The notes beneath the pieces are model-generated. The model saw only the letters and a list, made by a program, of their open reading frames with translations. It had not been told where the DNA came from and searched no databases. DNA of 64,000 nt from an uncultured Flavobacteriaceae bacterium (GTDB lineage Bacteria; Bacteroidota; Bacteroidia; Flavobacteriales; Flavobacteriaceae): positions 248,001-312,000 of the forward strand of contig CANLXN010000002.1 in NCBI GenBank assembly GCA_947495135.1, written 5' to 3'. The position numbers and the translations under genes were made by a program. Positions within the stretch are counted from its first letter, which is position 1; every line of letters begins with the position of its first letter. Below are positions 42,010 through 50,333 of the stretch, in pieces.

Positions 42010-44028
42010 ATGAAAAATCCATTATTAGAAAAGTTCGATACCGCACCATTTTCGAATATAGAGAACGAACACTACTTACCAGGAATAAAAGAATTGATCG
42101 CTCGCGCCAACCAAGAAATTAAGGCTATTGTTGAAAATACAGATGCACCCAATTTTCAGAATACAGTGGAAGCTTTGGAAAACACAGGGATGCAACTGGA
42201 TCGCGCTACAAGTATATTTTTTAATCTGAATAGTGCCGAAACGAACGATGAAATCCAAAAGATAGCGCAAAAAGTTTCTCCGCTACTAACCGATTTCAAA
42301 AATGATCTTCTCCTGAACGAGCAACTCTTCGGAAAAGTGAAAGCGGTATATGATGTTAGAGAACGTCTAGAATTATCTGGAGAACAACTAATGTTGCTGG
42401 AAAAACAATACAAAAGCTTCTCCCGCAATGGTGCGAACCTTTCCGAAGAAAAGAAAACAGAACTTCGCAAGATAGATGCGCAATTAGCAAAATTGAAACT
42501 TACTTTCGGTGAAAATGTGTTGGCTGCCACCAATGCTTTTGAAATGCGTATCGACAACGAAGAAGATTTAGCAGGTCTTCCAGAAGGAACCAAGGAAGCT
42601 GCCGCTCAAACTGCCAAGGAAAAAGGAAAAAAGGGATGGATGTTTACATTGGACTACCCAAGCTATATTCCTTTTATGACGTACGCTGAAAATCGCGAAT
42701 TACGCAAAAAAATGTCATTCGCCTTTGGTTCCCGTGCATTTAGAAACGATAAGTATAACAACGAACAAAATGTTCTTGACATCGCCAATTTACGCCACCA
42801 AAGAGCGAAATTATTAGGGTATGAAAGCCATGCACATTTTGTATTAGAAGAACGAATGGCGGAGACACCTCAAAATGTACTCTCCTTCTCTAATGAACTA
42901 TTAGAAAAAGCAAAACCTGCTGCCCAAAAGGAATTTGACGATTTGGCATCTTTCGCCAAAAAAATGGACGGCATAGATCAACTGGAAAAATGGGATAGTG
43001 CTTATTATGCTGAAAAGCTAAAACAGAAACGTTTCGATCTGGATGATGAGCAATTAAAACCCTATTTTAAACTAGAAAATGTAATAAAGGGTGTATTCAT
43101 GGTTGCTGAAAAGTTATTCGGATTGCAGTTTGAGGCAGACAATAAAATTGACAAGTATCACGAAGACGTTAAAACCTATAAGGTAACAGACGCCGAAGGA
43201 GCATTGGTTTCTATCTTTTATGCCGACTTCCATCCGCGAGCAGGAAAAAGAGGTGGGGCATGGATGACCAGTTATAAACCACAGCAAATTAAGGATGGCA
43301 AGAATGACCGTCCTCATGTATCTATTGTTTGTAATTTCACTAAGCCAACCCCTAGTAAGCCCTCTCTGCTTACCTTCAATGAGGTTACTACACTCTTCCA
43401 TGAGTTTGGACACGCTTTACATGGGATGTTAGCGAACACTACCTACAAGGGTCTTTCTGGAACATCGGTTTCTTGGGATTTTGTAGAACTGCCAAGTCAG
43501 ATCTTGGAGAATTGGTGTTATGAAAAAGAAACCTTAGAGTTGTTTGCAACCCATTACGAAACAGGAGAAGTAATCCCAATGGAACTCGTAAATAAGATTA
43601 AAGAATCCGCGACTTTTCACGAAGGAATGCAAACGTTAAGACAATTGAGCTTTGGACTTCTAGACATGTCTTGGCACGGAGCCGATCCGTCAGAAATTGA
43701 AAGCGTCAAGGAATTTGAAAACAAGTGTTTTGAAAATACCAAACTATATCCAGATACCCCAAGCACCTGCATGAGTACGGCTTTTTCGCATATATTTCAA
43801 GGAGGGTATTCTGCTGGATATTACAGCTATAAATGGGCAGAAGTTTTGGATGCGGACGCCTTCGCGTACTTCAAACAAGAGGGAATCTTTAACCGCAAAG
43901 TAGCCGATAAATTTAAAGACACCGTGCTATCTCAGGGAGGAACCAAAGATCCAATGGAATTATATGTGGAATTTAGAGGAGAGAAACCAAATCCCGATGC
44001 ACTTTTAAAGAGAGCCGGACTTATTTAG
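42010..44028 (+). CDS. dcp: M3-family metallopeptidase (dipeptidyl carboxypeptidase type)
   Basis: 672-residue zinc oligopeptidase. The active site HEFGH is at residues 464-468 (LFHEFGHALHGMLA) with the downstream third ligand region SWDFVELPSQILENW. N-terminal long helical half as in Dcp/oligopeptidase A (NPLLEKFDTAPFSNIENEHY). No signal peptide, so it probably degrades peptides in the cytoplasm. Dcp versus PrlC cannot be settled from sequence alone; the length favours Dcp. Confidence 0.88.
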   Translation: MKNPLLEKFDTAPFSNIENEHYLPGIKELIARANQEIKAIVENTDAPNFQNTVEALENTGMQLDRATSIFFNLNSAETNDEIQKIAQKVSPLLTDFKNDLLLNEQLFGKVKAVYDVRERLELSGEQLMLLEKQYKSFSRNGANLSEEKKTELRKIDAQLAKLKLTFGENVLAATNAFEMRIDNEEDLAGLPEGTKEAAAQTAKEKGKKGWMFTLDYPSYIPFMTYAENRELRKKMSFAFGSRAFRNDKYNNEQNVLDIANLRHQRAKLLGYESHAHFVLEERMAETPQNVLSFSNELLEKAKPAAQKEFDDLASFAKKMDGIDQLEKWDSAYYAEKLKQKRFDLDDEQLKPYFKLENVIKGVFMVAEKLFGLQFEADNKIDKYHEDVKTYKVTDAEGALVSIFYADFHPRAGKRGGAWMTSYKPQQIKDGKNDRPHVSIVCNFTKPTPSKPSLLTFNEVTTLFHEFGHALHGMLANTTYKGLSGTSVSWDFVELPSQILENWCYEKETLELFATHYETGEVIPMELVNKIKESATFHEGMQTLRQLSFGLLDMSWHGADPSEIESVKEFENKCFENTKLYPDTPSTCMSTAFSHIFQGGYSAGYYSYKWAEVLDADAFAYFKQEGIFNRKVADKFKDTVLSQGGTKDPMELYVEFRGEKPNPDALLKRAGLI

Positions 44029-44169: not shown

Positions 44170-45621
44170 CTATTTTAAAATAATCTTTTTGCTGTAAGTT
44201 GTGTTATTTGCTACCTGTAAATTTAAAACGTAAAGTCCAGTGGCAAGATTGGCCAAGGAGATTGTACCGGCATTACTATTTACGGCCAAAGACATCACCT
44301 CTTTACCTGAAATATCGAAAAGAGAAATCCCTTCAATGGCCTTTGCATTATTCAACACCTCATATGTAAGTACTTTGTTTGCAACTAACAGCTTATATTG
44401 ATCCTTAGGGAAATCACTTATTGCCAAGATCCCATTGCTCTTAGCGGTTTCAATTAAATATTCTGCGCATAGCTTGGTAAATTTAGCGGCGTGATCTGCT
44501 GTTCCAGAAACACTAAAAGTATCTCCCGCTGAATGGATAGTATTATTGTGTTGGCCAAAATTAGCTTCAAAAGGAAATGAAGACATATATCCTTCACTGG
44601 TCCAACTGGCGTGATCGGAACAACCATAGTTACAAAGAGATGTTCCATAAGAGATAGGGTGATCGCCGTCACTATTATAGTGATCCAACAATTGCATTAA
44701 AAAAGCATTGAGTGTTGCATTGGTATAATCGGTAATAAAAGAAACGTCATTGGCAGAACCATTATAATTGGTCATATCAAATTGTACTGCTGAAATAACA
44801 TTTACATTATTATCATTATAGTTGTCTGCGATTTCTGCCGAGCCTACCAATCCAATTTCTTCTGCTGCATAGGCCATTACTTCGATGGTGCGCTTTGGAA
44901 CAAAACCAATTTCAAAAAGGGTGCGCGTTGCTTCGGTGATGGTTGCTATTCCAGAAGCATCATCATCGGCACCAGGTGCGTTGTTATTACTTTGGTTTGA
45001 TGTGGAATCCAAATGCCCACCTACCACAACAAATTCATCAGGAAATTCTGCTCCCTCAATGGTCATAATAACAGAAGGCATATTGGTACTCACATGATTA
45101 TACAAACGAACACTTACATCGGTTCGACCATAGGCAGTCGCCATTGCTTCCCATTTAGCCTTTAAATCGACTGCGGCCTGACTGGCGGAAGCCCTATTAT
45201 GATATCGTGTACCATAACCTTGCAATTCTAAAATATGATCTTCAATGTTTTGAGTAACTACCGCATCGATTGCATCGTTTACTAAATCATCTTCAGTGAT
45301 TGTAAATGCCATTCGTGGAAAGGAAGAAACTGCCTTCTCTTCAGTTAAAGATGTAATGGCATCAACTAAACTTGGCTTATAAACATATCCAGGGCCATGC
45401 ACCAAAACTCGTTCATGCAACTCGTGGCCTGCCTTCTTAGTCATATAAACAGCCGCCTCATTTCTTTTAGTTTGAAGTATATCAACCTCGTTTGGAAAAT
45501 CTTTCTTTAACTCCTGCGCATCCTGTAAGGCCATTAGCGCATAGAATCGCTCCGAACCATCTTGGGCGTGCAAAACAAGAGTTAGTATTAAAGTAAATAA
45601 AGTAATAAGGTTCTTCTTCAT
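44170..45621 (-). CDS. Secreted M28-family metallopeptidase with T9SS sorting domain
   Basis: 483 residues: signal peptide (to LVLHAQ), a middle domain, and the M28 aminopeptidase domain. Zinc ligands and catalytic Glu are visible in VVGGHLDSTS, GADDDASGIATITEA, AYAAEEIGLVGS, VQFDMTNYN and NYGCSDHASW. The last 75 residues form a T9SS type A tail (SLANLATGLYVLNLQ, then SKKIILK). The ATG at 45621 starts the signal peptide. Likely an exported aminopeptidase for peptide scavenging. Confidence 0.9.
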   Translation of the reverse strand: MKKNLITLFTLILTLVLHAQDGSERFYALMALQDAQELKKDFPNEVDILQTKRNEAAVYMTKKAGHELHERVLVHGPGYVYKPSLVDAITSLTEEKAVSSFPRMAFTITEDDLVNDAIDAVVTQNIEDHILELQGYGTRYHNRASASQAAVDLKAKWEAMATAYGRTDVSVRLYNHVSTNMPSVIMTIEGAEFPDEFVVVGGHLDSTSNQSNNNAPGADDDASGIATITEATRTLFEIGFVPKRTIEVMAYAAEEIGLVGSAEIADNYNDNNVNVISAVQFDMTNYNGSANDVSFITDYTNATLNAFLMQLLDHYNSDGDHPISYGTSLCNYGCSDHASWTSEGYMSSFPFEANFGQHNNTIHSAGDTFSVSGTADHAAKFTKLCAEYLIETAKSNGILAISDFPKDQYKLLVANKVLTYEVLNNAKAIEGISLFDISGKEVMSLAVNSNAGTISLANLATGLYVLNLQVANNTTYSKKIILK

Positions 45622-45691: not shown

Positions 45692-45719
45692 TAAACTTTC
45701 AATATATTTTGAAAGTTTA
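45692..45719. promoter_or_regulatory. Operator of the GbsR-type regulator gene
   Basis: TAAACTTTCAA (45692-45702) and TTGAAAGTTTA (45709-45719) form an exact 11-bp inverted repeat around TATATT. The right arm contains the -33 TTTG of the regulator's promoter. A related palindrome with the identical right half TTGAAAGTTTAA lies before the next operon. This is the classic layout of an autorepressed MarR-type gene. Confidence 0.75.
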
Positions 45720-45737
45720 AAAATAATTGTATATTTG
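45708..45737 (+). promoter_or_regulatory. Promoter of the GbsR-type regulator gene
   Basis: TTTG (45708-45711), 18 bases, TATATTTG (45730-45737), both exact. The -7 box ends four bases before the ATG, which suggests a leaderless mRNA. Confidence 0.65.
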
Positions 45738-45741
45738 AACC

Positions 45742-46245
45742 ATGGAATTTAAAGAAGCAAAAGATAAATTTATCAGCACATGGGGTTCACTAGGGACTTT
45801 ATGGGGTATCAATAAAGCGATGGCTCAGATCCATGCTTTACTGTTTATTTCTCCAGACCCAATGTCTATGGAAGAGATTATGGAGGAGTTAGGAATATCT
45901 AGAGGGAATACCAGCATGAATCTACGGGCACTCATGGATTGGGGAATTGTACATAAAGTAAATGTTCCTGGGGAGCGAAAAGAGTACTTTGAAAGTGAGA
46001 AAGACGTAACCGAATTATCTCGTCAAATCGCTAAAGAACGCAGCCGAAGAGAGCTTCAGCCAACCATAAAGGTCTTGAAAGATATCTCCAGCATTGAAGA
46101 CGATGGCTCAGCAAAGACCAAGGAATTTATCAAACAAACCAAAGCAATGCACGATCTAGCAGATACGGCAGATGCTATGATGAATAGAATTGTAAGTCAG
46201 GAACAAAATTGGATCACTAAAACATTGGTGAAGTTCTTAAAATAA
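45742..46245 (+). CDS. GbsR/MarR-family transcriptional regulator
   Basis: 167 residues of the GbsR type: a winged helix-turn-helix (about 25-90, PMSMEEIMEELGISRGNTSMNLRALMDWGIVHKV) and a C-terminal helical dimer region with ERKEYFESEKDVTELSRQI. GbsR controls glycine-betaine synthesis in Bacillus, but here neighbours are different, so the inducer is not implied by name. Operators at 45692 and 46314 indicate that it controls itself and the next operon. Confidence 0.87.
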   Translation: MEFKEAKDKFISTWGSLGTLWGINKAMAQIHALLFISPDPMSMEEIMEELGISRGNTSMNLRALMDWGIVHKVNVPGERKEYFESEKDVTELSRQIAKERSRRELQPTIKVLKDISSIEDDGSAKTKEFIKQTKAMHDLADTADAMMNRIVSQEQNWITKTLVKFLK

Positions 46246-46277
46246 AGGCAGCTCCTAATAGATCTAGACACCAATCC

Positions 46278-46299
46278 AAGGGAATTAAATTTCCCTTTT
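46278..46299 (+). terminator. Terminator of the GbsR-type regulator gene
   Basis: AAGGGAA pairs with TTCCCTT around TTAAAT and is followed by T residues, 33 bases after the stop. It separates the regulator from the operon, which therefore needs its own promoter. Confidence 0.65.
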
Positions 46300-46313
46300 A
46301 ATTGAATACTATG

Positions 46314-46331
46314 TTTCAATAATTATTGAAA
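46314..46331. promoter_or_regulatory. Second operator, before the membrane/methyltransferase operon
   Basis: TTTCAATAATTATTGAAA is an exact 18-bp palindrome; the following GTTTAA makes its right half identical over 12 bases to the regulator's own operator. It overlaps a weak -7 box (TATGTTTC, 46310-46317), so binding would block this promoter. Confidence 0.65.
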
Positions 46332-46347
46332 GTTTAATAACTAAGAT

Positions 46348-46677
46348 ATGAAAACTACCACCAGATTACTTCAGCTCAACTACGGTCTCATCCTAATAAT
46401 GGTACTTTTATACTCCACCTTTTGGGGCGGAGTACTTATGCAGATTTTTTTGGGAGTAGTTCACATTTGCTGTTACATATATCTTATTACCTATTATTTC
46501 AACCGCCACAAAACACTAAAAACACATCTTTTAATCTACGGAATAGTAACCGTCGTCCTTTTGTCTCTATTCCCCATCTTTGGTGGAAACCTTCTTTTGA
46601 GTGTATGGATCGGGTCTGTACCACTAATTATCTATTTCACTTATATTCTTCATCAAACTAAAAAAGTTCAATCATGA
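46348..46677 (+). CDS. Small membrane protein, operon gene 1
   Basis: 109 residues with about four membrane helices and only short loops (LILIMVLLYSTFWGGVLMQIF, VHICCYIYLITYYF). No recognised domain. It stands directly after the operator and overlaps the next gene by four bases (ATGA), so it belongs to the same tightly coupled unit. Candidates are a small transporter or a membrane partner for the downstream enzymes. Confidence 0.7.
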   Translation: MKTTTRLLQLNYGLILIMVLLYSTFWGGVLMQIFLGVVHICCYIYLITYYFNRHKTLKTHLLIYGIVTVVLLSLFPIFGGNLLLSVWIGSVPLIIYFTYILHQTKKVQS

Positions 46678-47102
46678 AAATCGATATCCCAAACTGGTTA
46701 ATTATTGCTGGCGGCTGCGGCCAAATTTTTACCGCCCTTGTATATCCTTACATAAGACATAAAGTATTTGATTGGTACACAGATGTAAAACAGCTAAAAC
46801 CACTCAACCAAGAGATTGCAAAAACTTATGGCCGATATATTCAAGGACTTAACTTTTCCTTTGGGTTAATCGCAATTATAATCACCGATGATCTTAAAAA
46901 CGGTACTAACCTAGCCATAGCAATTACAGCTCTTATCGCTGCTTATTGGGTAGGAAAAGTAGCTACACAAATCGCGTATTATCCCATGTACGACATTCCG
47001 AAGAAATTCATATTCAAATGGGGCGGATACGGGATGAACCTACTCTTTGTATTATTTGCGGTCGTATATAGTTTATTACTCATTCAGAATATCATGTCAT
47101 GA
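46674..47102 (+). CDS. Membrane protein, operon gene 2
   Basis: 142 residues with about four membrane helices (LIIAGGCGQIFTALVYPYIRH, GLIAIIITDD, LAIAITALIAAYWVGKVATQI, LLFVLFAVVYSLLLI) and a polar cytoplasmic-looking loop (about 37-55). No family recognised. ATGA overlaps at both ends couple its translation to both neighbours. Confidence 0.7.
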   Translation: MKIDIPNWLIIAGGCGQIFTALVYPYIRHKVFDWYTDVKQLKPLNQEIAKTYGRYIQGLNFSFGLIAIIITDDLKNGTNLAIAITALIAAYWVGKVATQIAYYPMYDIPKKFIFKWGGYGMNLLFVLFAVVYSLLLIQNIMS

Positions 47103-48013
47103 AAAATCTAATAATAGCTGGAGGCAATGGCTTCTTAGGTCAGACGCTCATCGATTTTTATAAGAATAAAGTGGAGAAAGTTTATGTTCTTTCACGTTCT
47201 TCAAGAACATCGGTTGGAAATGTTGAATATCTTCAATGGGACGGAAAAACATTAGGTGATTGGGCCCACTATTTAAGCCAATGCGATGTTTTAATCAACC
47301 TCAGCGGGAAATCTGTCGACTGTAGATATCATCAAAAAAATAAGGACCTTATTCTTTCATCTCGCATCGATTCTACCCGCGTTTTAGGGCAGGCAATTAA
47401 CCAATGCGAAAATCCGCCAAAAATCTGGCTCAATTCATCGACCGCAACCATTTACAGACATTCGCTCGACAAGGAAATGGACGAGCGCAATGGAGAATTA
47501 GGGGACGGGTTTTCAGTGGGAATTGCAAAAGCCTGGGAAAAAGAATTTTTCAGCTTTGAGTTAAAATCGACCAGACAAGTCGCTTTAAGAACCTCTATCG
47601 TGTTCGGAAAAAATGGCGGTGCTTTTATACCCATCAAAAACCTGACAAAAATAGGATTTGGAGGAAAACAAGGAAGCGGGCTTCAAAAAGTAAGTTGGAT
47701 TCACGAAGAAGATTTTGCAAGAAGTGTCGACTTCATTATTCAGAATAAAAACCTAAACGGCCCAATAAATATAGTATCTCCAAAACCAACAACTAATGGA
47801 GCACTAATGAAACTACTTCGAACTAAAATGAACATTCCTTTTGGAATTCCAATGGGGAAAAGCATGCTTGAACTAGGTGCAAGAATTATTAAAACCGAAA
47901 CCGAACTCATATTAAAAAGCAGAAACGTAATTCCTGGTATTTTAACAGAAAATGGTTTTCAATTTAAATTTGGAACCCTTGATAAAACAATCGACCACCT
48001 TATAAAAAAGTAA
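47099..48013 (+). CDS. TIGR01777-family NAD(P)-binding epimerase-like protein
   Basis: 304-residue extended short-chain dehydrogenase of the TIGR01777/YfcH group. Rossmann motif AGGNGFLGQ at about residues 6-14, DVLINLSGKSVDCRYHQKNK, SSTATIYRHS, and LRTSIVFGKNGGAF with the C-terminal DUF1731 region (NVIPGILTENGFQFKF). Its reaction is not known in any organism I can name. Relatives are often encoded beside SRPBCC proteins, as here (48965). Confidence 0.87.
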   Translation: MKNLIIAGGNGFLGQTLIDFYKNKVEKVYVLSRSSRTSVGNVEYLQWDGKTLGDWAHYLSQCDVLINLSGKSVDCRYHQKNKDLILSSRIDSTRVLGQAINQCENPPKIWLNSSTATIYRHSLDKEMDERNGELGDGFSVGIAKAWEKEFFSFELKSTRQVALRTSIVFGKNGGAFIPIKNLTKIGFGGKQGSGLQKVSWIHEEDFARSVDFIIQNKNLNGPINIVSPKPTTNGALMKLLRTKMNIPFGIPMGKSMLELGARIIKTETELILKSRNVIPGILTENGFQFKFGTLDKTIDHLIKK

Positions 48014-48017
48014 TCTT

Positions 48018-48902
48018 ATGAAAACAGTAGACATTCCCCTCGGCACAAAAGAAAATGACCAAAATGCTTCTAGGCAGGATATAATTGACTTCTACAACGA
48101 AGCAACAGAAGACTATAGTTTTTGGAGCAAAGATTTAAACATGCACTTCGGATATTGTTCTTTTGGGCGCTCCAATCCCTTTAAAAGAGACACCATGTTG
48201 AACGAATTAAACAGACAGGTCTATAACCGACTTCAATTACCAGAAGAAAAAAGTACGGTTGCCGATCTTGGTTGCGGAATGGGAGGAACCATGCGTCACT
48301 TTTTAAACAGAAACAAAAAACTCTCAATGATAGGTGTTACCCTCTCACCTTTTCAAGTTCAGGAAGGTAATAAACTCCTCAAAAACAATAATGGAGTAAT
48401 CCTTCAAGAAAACTATTGTCAAACCTCGATTGCGTCAAGTTCTATGGATGGAGTTATTGGGATGGAGAGTCTATGCCATTCTGGCCATAGCAAGGAATCA
48501 CTAACAGAAGGTTTTCGCTTATTAAAAGAAGGAGGAACCTTTGTAATAAGCGACGCATTTTTGAAGAAAGACCCTTCTAAACTATGTCTGGGAAGCTCTT
48601 ACAGCTATAAAAATCTTTGCAAGGGATGGAGCTTAGACGGTCTTGGAGTAATAGACCAAGTAGAAGAACGCCTTAAAAAAATTGGCTTCAAGGAAGTGAT
48701 TATTGAAGATGTCTCCTTTCGCACTGCTATTTCCGTTCTGCATGTACCCTTTGCTATTTCTGGTTTTTTACTGAAAAATTTCTTTAAAAGAAAGCCTGTC
48801 AAACCGCAGAGTTGGAACAACTTGAAGGCTTCATTTTTCGCTTTGCTCTCTGGATTACACATGAGAGATTTTGGATATTACATAATCACCGCTAGAAAAT
48901 AA
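48018..48902 (+). CDS. Class I SAM-dependent methyltransferase
   Basis: 294 residues. SAM motif I ADLGCGMGGTMRHF near residues 82-95, preceded by YNEATEDYSFWSKDLNMHFGY, a feature of the tocopherol/sterol and cyclopropane-fatty-acid methyltransferase groups, and followed by MDGVIGMESLCHSGHSKESL. The C-terminal part has hydrophobic stretches (AISVLHVPFAISGFLLKNFF). This points to a hydrophobic substrate such as a lipid, quinone or isoprenoid. Four bases after the epimerase-like gene. Confidence 0.82.
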   Translation: MKTVDIPLGTKENDQNASRQDIIDFYNEATEDYSFWSKDLNMHFGYCSFGRSNPFKRDTMLNELNRQVYNRLQLPEEKSTVADLGCGMGGTMRHFLNRNKKLSMIGVTLSPFQVQEGNKLLKNNNGVILQENYCQTSIASSSMDGVIGMESLCHSGHSKESLTEGFRLLKEGGTFVISDAFLKKDPSKLCLGSSYSYKNLCKGWSLDGLGVIDQVEERLKKIGFKEVIIEDVSFRTAISVLHVPFAISGFLLKNFFKRKPVKPQSWNNLKASFFALLSGLHMRDFGYYIITARK

Positions 48903-48964: not shown

Positions 48965-49423
48965 ATGACTACAATAGAACTGCATACCACCATAGACGCT
49001 TCCTTAATTGAAGTTTTTGATCTCTCCAGAAGTATTGATTTTCATATGAAATCTGCTTCCAAAACTAAAGAGAGAGCGATCGCCGGTCGCATTACAGGGC
49101 TTATTGGTTTTGGAGAGACCGTAACCTGGCGAGGAAAACATTTTGGCATCTTCCTTGAACACACCAGTAAGATTATAGACTACGAGCGACCTCATAAATT
49201 CACAGACATTATGATTAAAGATCATTTCAAGTATTTCTGCCATCAACATTTTTTTAAACATGAACAAGAAAAAACGATCATGACCGATGTATTAAAGTAT
49301 AGAACGCCTTATGGTTTTTTCGGAAATTTATTTGATCACGCACTATTGCGAAGGCATCTCACTAGATTTCTTCAACATAGAAATGAACTAATTAAAATCA
49401 CAGCAGAAAAACACCCAGTTTAG
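48965..49423 (+). CDS. SRPBCC (START-like) superfamily protein
   Basis: 152 residues beginning TTIELHTTIDASLIEVFDLSRSIDFH, the first strand and helix of the SRPBCC fold, with GLIGFGETVTWRGKHFG and KTIMTDVLKYRTPYGFFGNLF. The fold has a hydrophobic pocket that binds lipids or isoprenoids. It is 62 bases after the methyltransferase and probably in its transcript. Such genes are annotated as polyketide cyclase or cell-division inhibitor; neither is supported here. Confidence 0.82.
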   Translation: MTTIELHTTIDASLIEVFDLSRSIDFHMKSASKTKERAIAGRITGLIGFGETVTWRGKHFGIFLEHTSKIIDYERPHKFTDIMIKDHFKYFCHQHFFKHEQEKTIMTDVLKYRTPYGFFGNLFDHALLRRHLTRFLQHRNELIKITAEKHPV

Positions 49424-49529: not shown

Positions 49530-50081
49530 ATGTCAGTTAATCAATTAGATCCTAATGTATGGGTAGATAAGTACTCAGACTACTTATACAATTACACCAT
49601 TGTTAGAGTGAACGACCACGAAGTAGCACAGGATCTTATCAGCGAAACATTCTTGGCTGGTTTAAAATCGAAAAATAATTTTAAGGGAGAAGCTACCGAG
49701 CGCACCTGGTTAATTTCGATTCTGAAACGCAAGATTATTGACCACTATCGAAAAATTAATTCGAATAAGGGCAAGGCTGAAGTTAGAATGAGTTACAGCG
49801 ACGATGAAAGTGAAGGAGACTGGTTGGAGGAACGTGTAAGCGACCCTTTCGACAAGACGGCAGAAGACACCATGGAGAACGAAGAACTAGGAATGGCTAT
49901 CTTTAGCTGTTTAGATAACCTCCCCGAAAAACAGGCGTCGATATTTAGAAAAAAAACAATAGACGGCATCGATACAGAAAGTATTTGTAATGAATATGAT
50001 ATTACACCGTCTAATCTATGGGTAATTATACATCGTGCAAGAAAAGGGATGGCAGATTGCCTAGAAAAAAGTTGGTTTTAG
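49530..50081 (+). CDS. ECF-type RNA polymerase sigma factor
   Basis: 183 residues. Region 2 (about 10-80, DYLYNYTIVRVNDHEVAQDLISETFLAGLK, ERTWLISILKRKIIDHYRK) recognises the -10 region and region 4 (about 125-183, LDNLPEKQASIFRKKTIDGIDTESIC, PSNLWVIIHRARKGMADCL) the -35. A frame opens eight codons upstream; the ATG at 49530 fits better. A small zinc-finger-like gene follows after 15 bases and is probably the matching anti-sigma factor. Confidence 0.9.
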   Translation: MSVNQLDPNVWVDKYSDYLYNYTIVRVNDHEVAQDLISETFLAGLKSKNNFKGEATERTWLISILKRKIIDHYRKINSNKGKAEVRMSYSDDESEGDWLEERVSDPFDKTAEDTMENEELGMAIFSCLDNLPEKQASIFRKKTIDGIDTESICNEYDITPSNLWVIIHRARKGMADCLEKSWF

Positions 50082-50096
50082 AATAGCGTACAACAC

Positions 50097-50333
50097 ATGA
50101 ATATTAAAATGGAATGCCACGAGGCAAATCACATTTGTGATAAGAATCAATACAAGGAAGCAGGCTTTTGGGAAATGGTCAAGCTCAATATACACCTAAT
50201 ATACTGTCGTGCTTGTAGAAAATACACAGCACGTAATATGAAGCTCACAAAAGCAGTGCATGATCCAAAGGTAAAATCTGTTTCAGCAGCAGATAAAGAT
50301 GCTTTGAAACGAAGACTTCAACAGGAACTTTAA
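50097..50333 (+). CDS. ZAS-type anti-sigma factor
   Basis: 78 residues with the zinc-binding anti-sigma signature H-x3-C-x2-C at His33, Cys37 and Cys40 (NIHLIYCRACRKY) and two more cysteines at 7 and 14. There is no membrane helix, so it should be a soluble inhibitor of the ECF sigma factor encoded just upstream. Soluble ZAS proteins often respond to oxidation or metals; that is inference here. Confidence 0.75.
   Translation: MNIKMECHEANHICDKNQYKEAGFWEMVKLNIHLIYCRACRKYTARNMKLTKAVHDPKVKSVSAADKDALKRRLQQEL

Follow-up and report, generated by a model that had tools for sequence, protein, structure and literature searches.

The window, by which we mean the entire stretch of 64,000 nucleotides that was analysed, carries a small regulator gene with a palindrome on either side, followed by several genes that we call cargo and by the gene of an ECF sigma factor (Table 1). 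The palindromes are referred to below as operator 1 and operator 2, and together with the regulator as the module. Upstream lie a peptidase gene (42010-44028), which we take to be of the M3 type, and, at 44170-45621, a gene for an M28 peptidase with a type 9 secretion tail, found to the left of the module here and to the right of the cargo in another locus (L040). The sigma gene and a neighbour that by eye encodes a small zinc-finger-like anti-sigma factor (49530-50333 together) form the right border in most loci of the same family.

Table 1. Features of the locus, with positions counted from the first nucleotide of the window.
Feature	Positions	Strand	Description	Basis
M3-type peptidase gene (presumed)	42010..44028	+	Abuts the sigma gene in 10/23 loci without the module	
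Operator 1 (putative)	45692..45719	.	28-bp inverted repeat, 11-bp arms and 6-bp spacer, 5' of the regulator: TAAACTTTCAA-TATATT-TTGAAAGTTTA	Sequence
TTTG, -33 box of the putative regulator promoter	45708..45711	+	Inside operator 1	Sequence
TATATTTG, -7 box of the putative regulator promoter	45730..45737	+	4 nt 5' of the start codon	Sequence
Regulator gene	45742..46245	+	167 aa, winged helix, MJ223/GbsR-like MarR relative	PF12802, 1ku9
Terminator-like hairpin	46278..46299	+	AAGGGAA-TTAAAT-TTCCCTT and T run, between the regulator and operator 2	
TTG, possible -33 box of a cargo promoter	46302..46304	+	12 bp 5' of operator 2	
Operator 2 (putative)	46314..46331	.	Exact 18-bp palindrome, 16 bp 5' of the first cargo start codon: TTTCAATAATTATTGAAA	Sequence
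Cargo gene 1	46348..46677	+	Small membrane protein, family o4	No Pfam family above cut-off
Cargo gene 2	46674..47102	+	Small membrane protein, family o6	No Pfam match
Cargo gene 3	47099..48013	+	TIGR01777 family oxidoreductase	252.8 bits, cut-off 207.35
Cargo gene 4	48018..48902	+	SAM-dependent methyltransferase, family o5	PF08241 above cut-off
Cargo gene 5	48965..49423	+	Family o7	No match in profile searches including Pfam, NCBIfam and PADLOC
ECF sigma factor gene	49530..50081	+	Right border of the slot in Flavobacteriaceae; right breakpoints lie before it	

The regulator belongs to the MarR superfamily, its winged helix-turn-helix domain matching PF12802 with 34.1 bits against a cut-off of 27. 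It also matches MJ223 (PDB 1ku9) at an E-value of 2.1e-23 over positions 3-150, a homology of GbsR type that spans the whole length, and 1ku9 is the first-ranked Foldseek hit (E 3.5e-9, TM 0.51) of its predicted model (pLDDT 82). The preliminary description had called the regulator GbsR-type, and in this sense of homology the name stands. As a choline sensor, it does not: the NCBIfam profile of the choline regulator CudC (NF047500) gives 56.9 bits, below its cut-off of 218, and the aromatic cluster is missing. A table in one study places the choline cage of OpuAR at positions 93-101 (PMC6207618). In an alignment of 28 sequences that did not include GbsR, and in which the cage was located by the OpuAR positions, F, W and Y are absent from columns 85-128 in 24 sequences and number one or two in the other 4. 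As the aromatic residues of the cage are absent, the ligand is probably not choline.

The two palindromes are exact and match one another, as described previously, having in common TTTCAA-N6-TTGAAA plus the 12 bases TTGAAAGTTTAA; a T tract was looked for 3' of both and found at neither. Directly 3' of the right arm, both carry GTTTAAAA, the final A of which is present in 81 of 81 copies of each operator. Neither the palindrome nor the promoter fully accounts for the presence of this flank. The exact pattern has two matches in the window, both at the operators, and when two mismatches are allowed it is not enriched there (18 observed vs 15.3 expected). It is conservation, and not the counts within one window, that makes the case for these putative sites.

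The promoter consensus of Bacteroidetes consists of a -33 and a -7 box. Upstream of the regulator gene, a TTTG box is located 18 nt ahead of the -7 box, and the earlier proposal that the first palindrome overlaps the -33 box holds. The -7 box keeps its offset: TAnnTTTG lies 33-35 nt after the start of the palindrome in 77 of 81 loci (the window and the best 80 of 577 relatives). Because the -7 box ends 4 nt ahead of the start codon (45730-45742), we predict a regulator transcript with little or no leader. This 4-nt spacing is common in relatives too.

Both sites are conserved far beyond the window. A scan of 149 genomes of the same family found a regulator match at E <=0.001 in 43, 29 of which are strong orthologues (E <=3e-36). 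The upstream site scores 11/12 or 12/12 in all 28 orthologues with a full upstream stretch, and a downstream match of at least 10/12 is present within 420 bp after the stop codon in 29 of 29, the best-scoring one in L011 not being operator 2, which was identified there separately. A scan of named genomes gave 577 relatives. The regulator of Marinirhabdus gelatinilytica is 87% identical to that of the window. Among the best 80 of these 577, which were analysed, both sites reach at least 10/12 in every locus, and at least 11/12 in 78 upstream and 73 downstream. Dinucleotide shuffles of the same flanks (100 for each of the 80 loci, or 8000 per side) scored at least 11/12 in only 88 cases upstream and 77 downstream; at the looser threshold of 10/12, 671 and 896 of the 8000 passed.

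At the level of the class, 99 of 295 genomes have a regulator match at E 1e-15. We analysed 28 further loci, 4 from the same family, 2 from the same order and 22 from other families of the class. All 28 carry the upstream site. Downstream, 26 of them score 10/12 or more over a 700-nt stretch without a shuffle control of its own, counting one weak match that is probably due to chance (L177). The second site follows an extra gene in L162 and L168. It was looked for in L154 and L172 and is not present there, and in L203, where the cargo begins 2 bp after the regulator, there is no credible second site. The preliminary description had named the absence of the palindromes before orthologous genes as one result that would speak against it; in the best 80 relatives and in 26 of the 28 further loci they are in place.

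Across the phylum, a regulator match at E 1e-12 was obtained in 146 of 395 genomes, and 15 chosen loci were read. Members of the regulator's clade outside the class have operator 1 in 5 of 5 cases (one at 10/12) and operator 2 in 0 of 5, so autoregulation seems to be older than the second operator. Neither operator was found at L261 and neither site at the distant relative L270, both of which are in the class. In a sister clade of regulators, none of the six readable loci reaches 11/12 (in the other two of the eight, L265 and L269, the frame was misassigned), and L266 has a lone 10/12 match. One genome contains a site-less member of the sister clade (L262) beside a member of the clade with a site (L256).

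Within genomes, the sites are confined to the locus. In the 4.29-Mb genome to which the window belongs, the exact pattern has 7 matches vs 2 for a reversed control, and the 5 matches other than the operators all lie inside open reading frames. Genomes were scanned with the stricter pattern AACTTTCARN6YTGAAA, which is present in 27 of 28 genomes with an orthologue. By manual count, 51 of the 56 distinct sites are at the locus and 5 elsewhere, and the control gave 2 hits. Three of these 5 were read, two being in open reading frames (L181 and L183) and one intergenic (L182). Where a strong orthologue is lacking (28 genomes), the strict pattern gave 6 hits in 5 genomes vs 3 for the control, which is chance level, and the two of the 6 that were read (L179 and L180) are both in open reading frames. 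This comparison lends support to the earlier suggestion that the site belongs to the regulator. Since the strict sites are almost confined to the locus, the predicted regulon is local and would comprise the regulator and one operon. The term 'regulon' used previously therefore holds for the regulator and the next operon, which is one locus, but not for anything wider, and a wider regulon was rejected.

Two layouts connect the regulator to the cargo. In 48 of the 80 loci, operator 2 is 16-24 nt after the regulator stop codon, and none of these has a terminator-like hairpin. In the other 32, the window locus being of this kind, the two are 39-129 nt apart, and such a hairpin is present in 28. 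As the hairpin separates the regulator from operator 2, a promoter belonging to the cargo itself is likely in the long-gap loci. The distance from the end of operator 2 to the cargo start codon is 16-21 bp in 70 of 78 loci (manual count), whatever the family of the first cargo gene. At 12 bp before operator 2, TTT is found in 48/48 short-gap loci, and T at -12 in 31/32 long-gap loci. In Flavobacteriaceae the element there reads TTT[CA]AA and was considered as a third half-site. However, the class loci fit TTTnAA in only 1 of 26 cases, whereas a TTTG-like box is seen by eye 12-13 bp before operator 2 in 13 of the 26. A -33 box is thus the better guess for this element, although no canonical -7 box that would fit was found ahead of the cargo.

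What follows operator 2 varies. In 105 distinct loci, the cargo includes TIGR01777 (62 loci), the methyltransferase o5 (53), the small membrane proteins o4 (49) and o6 (46), o7 (33), the o1 pair of small membrane proteins (32), DUF2071 (22), DoxX_3 (12) and the methyltransferase o10 (12), with DCC1-like proteins, a fatty acid desaturase and others being rarer. Membrane spans were assigned by a rough hydropathy count, and the label SRPBCC that we attached to cargo gene 5 is our own assumption, to which no search gave support. One locus (L192) has a longer cargo operon with a desaturase, DUF4166, a 'Luciferase domain' protein and a PEMT-like homologue (o26). A TIGR01777 gene is found elsewhere in 28 of 28 genomes searched, 8 of which are without a strong regulator orthologue, so the one in the slot is an extra copy. 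PADLOC, run on six proteins of the window for anti-phage defence, returned only weak partial matches (to HTH parts and to one methyltransferase part). A link to light or photolyase was also considered and dropped: the literature gave nothing usable, and no photolyase label appeared among the selected cargo run on Pfam. With low confidence, we guess from the families present that the cargo might have a role in the membrane or its lipids.

The 98 delimited loci contain 63 gene orders and 57 gene sets, counts that are approximate because the simple ORF caller, used with a gap rule, shortens some operons (e.g. L044 and L057). Cargo of the same families is located behind the module in 17 of 20 class loci, at other chromosomal places; of these 20, 19 were scored, and L199 and L201 have none. 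To define the borders of the slot, we took the 63 loci in which cargo, operator 2 and the sigma gene are all present and compared those whose regulators are at least 90% identical and which have no cargo family in common. This yielded 23 pairs from 18 loci, so that the pairs overlap. On the left, shared DNA stops at a median of 23 bp past operator 2 (range 4-139), approximately at the start codon. On the right, it restarts at a median of 37 bp past the last cargo stop codon (range -1 to 141), and between these borders there is no DNA match in any of the 23 pairs. In L107 and L118, for example, the regulators are 99% identical and the flanks 91-93% identical, and the cargo is unrelated. The whole module can be missing as well. 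The same sigma gene is present in 23 of 28 genomes without a strong orthologue, and in 10 of these 23 it is adjoined directly by the peptidase gene with no regulator or cargo between them. The cargo is therefore replaced as a block, with sharp borders, and the module as a whole is present or absent. Homologous recombination in the conserved flanks is probably the route of exchange.

One empty slot (L279) has a 12/12 site-like match at 1456-1473, where the peptidase gene gives way to the sigma gene; it could be a relic operator or just the -7 box of the latter (TACATTTG). A link to the sigma factor was rejected: in Flavobacteriaceae the gene adjoins the slot only by stable synteny, and it was not seen among the listed downstream genes of the 20 class loci.

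The most coherent account of these data is the following. The regulator, a small MarR-superfamily protein related to MJ223 and GbsR, would recognise TTTCAA-N6-TTGAAA as its own palindrome and bind it at both operators. At operator 1 it would cover the -33 box of its promoter and so limit its own synthesis. At operator 2, with a weak -33-like box on one side and the cargo start codon on the other, it would keep the operon shut until some signal releases it. The operators and the regulator would form a fixed control module, and the slot behind operator 2 would take genes that are exchanged as a block. We regard this explanation as a whole as quite probable. The prediction of autorepression and control of the neighbouring operon made in the preliminary description gains comparative support, the sites flanking the regulator in all of the best 80 relatives. 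We also lean, with some caution, towards a broader view, in which the arrangement of operator 1, regulator and operator 2 serves throughout the phylum as a standard expression slot, so that exchangeable membrane or lipid genes, inserted as blocks behind operator 2 and traded among species with breakpoints at the operator and start codon, would come under the resident repressor at once.

Could the palindromes be bound by another protein, with the adjacent regulator a mere passenger? One motif can serve several regulators, and we infer binding by this one. Nevertheless, the presence of the site tracks the regulator clade across families and differing chromosomal places, drops to chance level in genomes without the regulator and does not extend to the sister clade, and we find a passenger role very unlikely. 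That the second palindrome acts as RNA, in the form of a terminator or a leader structure, is hardly credible either. It is true that most long-gap loci (28 of 32) have a terminator-like hairpin immediately before it. However, position 12 of operator 2 is a C opposite A5 in 56 of 81 copies, which breaks the RNA pair and leaves the DNA half-site readable and thus argues against an RNA hairpin. Furthermore, its flank GTTTAAAA is asymmetric and common to operator 1, and no T tract follows.

If the regulator does bind both sites, it might activate the cargo operon instead of repressing it, as one study credits some MarR-type proteins with activation (PMC6207618). Operator 1 lies over a -33 box and operator 2 some 20 bp or less from the start codon; both locations suit repression, and we consider activation improbable. 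A more serious alternative concerns the way in which the cargo would be repressed: not by covering a promoter, but by a roadblock downstream of the transcription start or, in the short-gap loci, by control of read-through from the regulator promoter. Both modes are described in B. subtilis, where OpcR covers the -35 region and GbsR acts as a roadblock (PMC7396694). The 48 loci with a short gap and no terminator, and the lack of a -7 box before the cargo, would fit this alternative, but the hairpin before operator 2 in the window and in 28 of 32 long-gap loci and the TTTG-like box in half of the 26 class loci would not. We consider it a real possibility, if the less likely one, and prefer repression at a promoter of the cargo operon.

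A literature search found no description of the TTTCAA-N6-TTGAAA site or its targets, which is not proof of their absence from it. The locus offers a ready operator for footprinting and a defined circuit of two promoters. In addition, the relatives in which different cargo stands behind one regulator form a series of natural exchanges that could reveal a common signal and the roles of the TIGR01777, DUF2071, DoxX_3 and DCC1-like families.

Among known systems, CrtR of Corynebacterium glutamicum is reportedly a light-related MarR repressor of carotenoid genes. The present locus resembles it in that a MarR-type protein would control a local operon related to the membrane, but CrtR acts on carotenoid genes, and our analysis revealed no link to light. 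MJ223 of Methanocaldococcus jannaschii (1ku9) is the best match to the window regulator in both sequence and fold, but the orientation of the long stem differs in the predicted model (rmsd 17.9). The excerpts of two papers give no operator or target for MJ223 (PMC6207618, PMC7396694). GbsR and OpcR of Bacillus subtilis are, according to the same papers, dimers of the MarR superfamily with an MJ223 fold that act at A/T-rich inverted repeats near the transcription start (PMC7396694, PMC6207618), which is similar to what we propose here. However, they control the synthesis and uptake of glycine betaine and have an aromatic choline cage, whereas here this cluster is absent, the targets differ and the regulator is flanked by its operator on both sides. 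The CydE-type relatives of GbsR beside cydAB, as described in the 2018 survey (PMC6207618), are likewise repressors adjoining their target operon. Their target, cytochrome bd, is fixed, whereas in the present locus the target genes change. The same survey reports GbsR-type regulators of Bacteroidetes to be without a consistent gene neighbourhood (PMC6207618). An exchangeable slot would explain this, the constant part being the operator pair and the slot and not the neighbouring genes.
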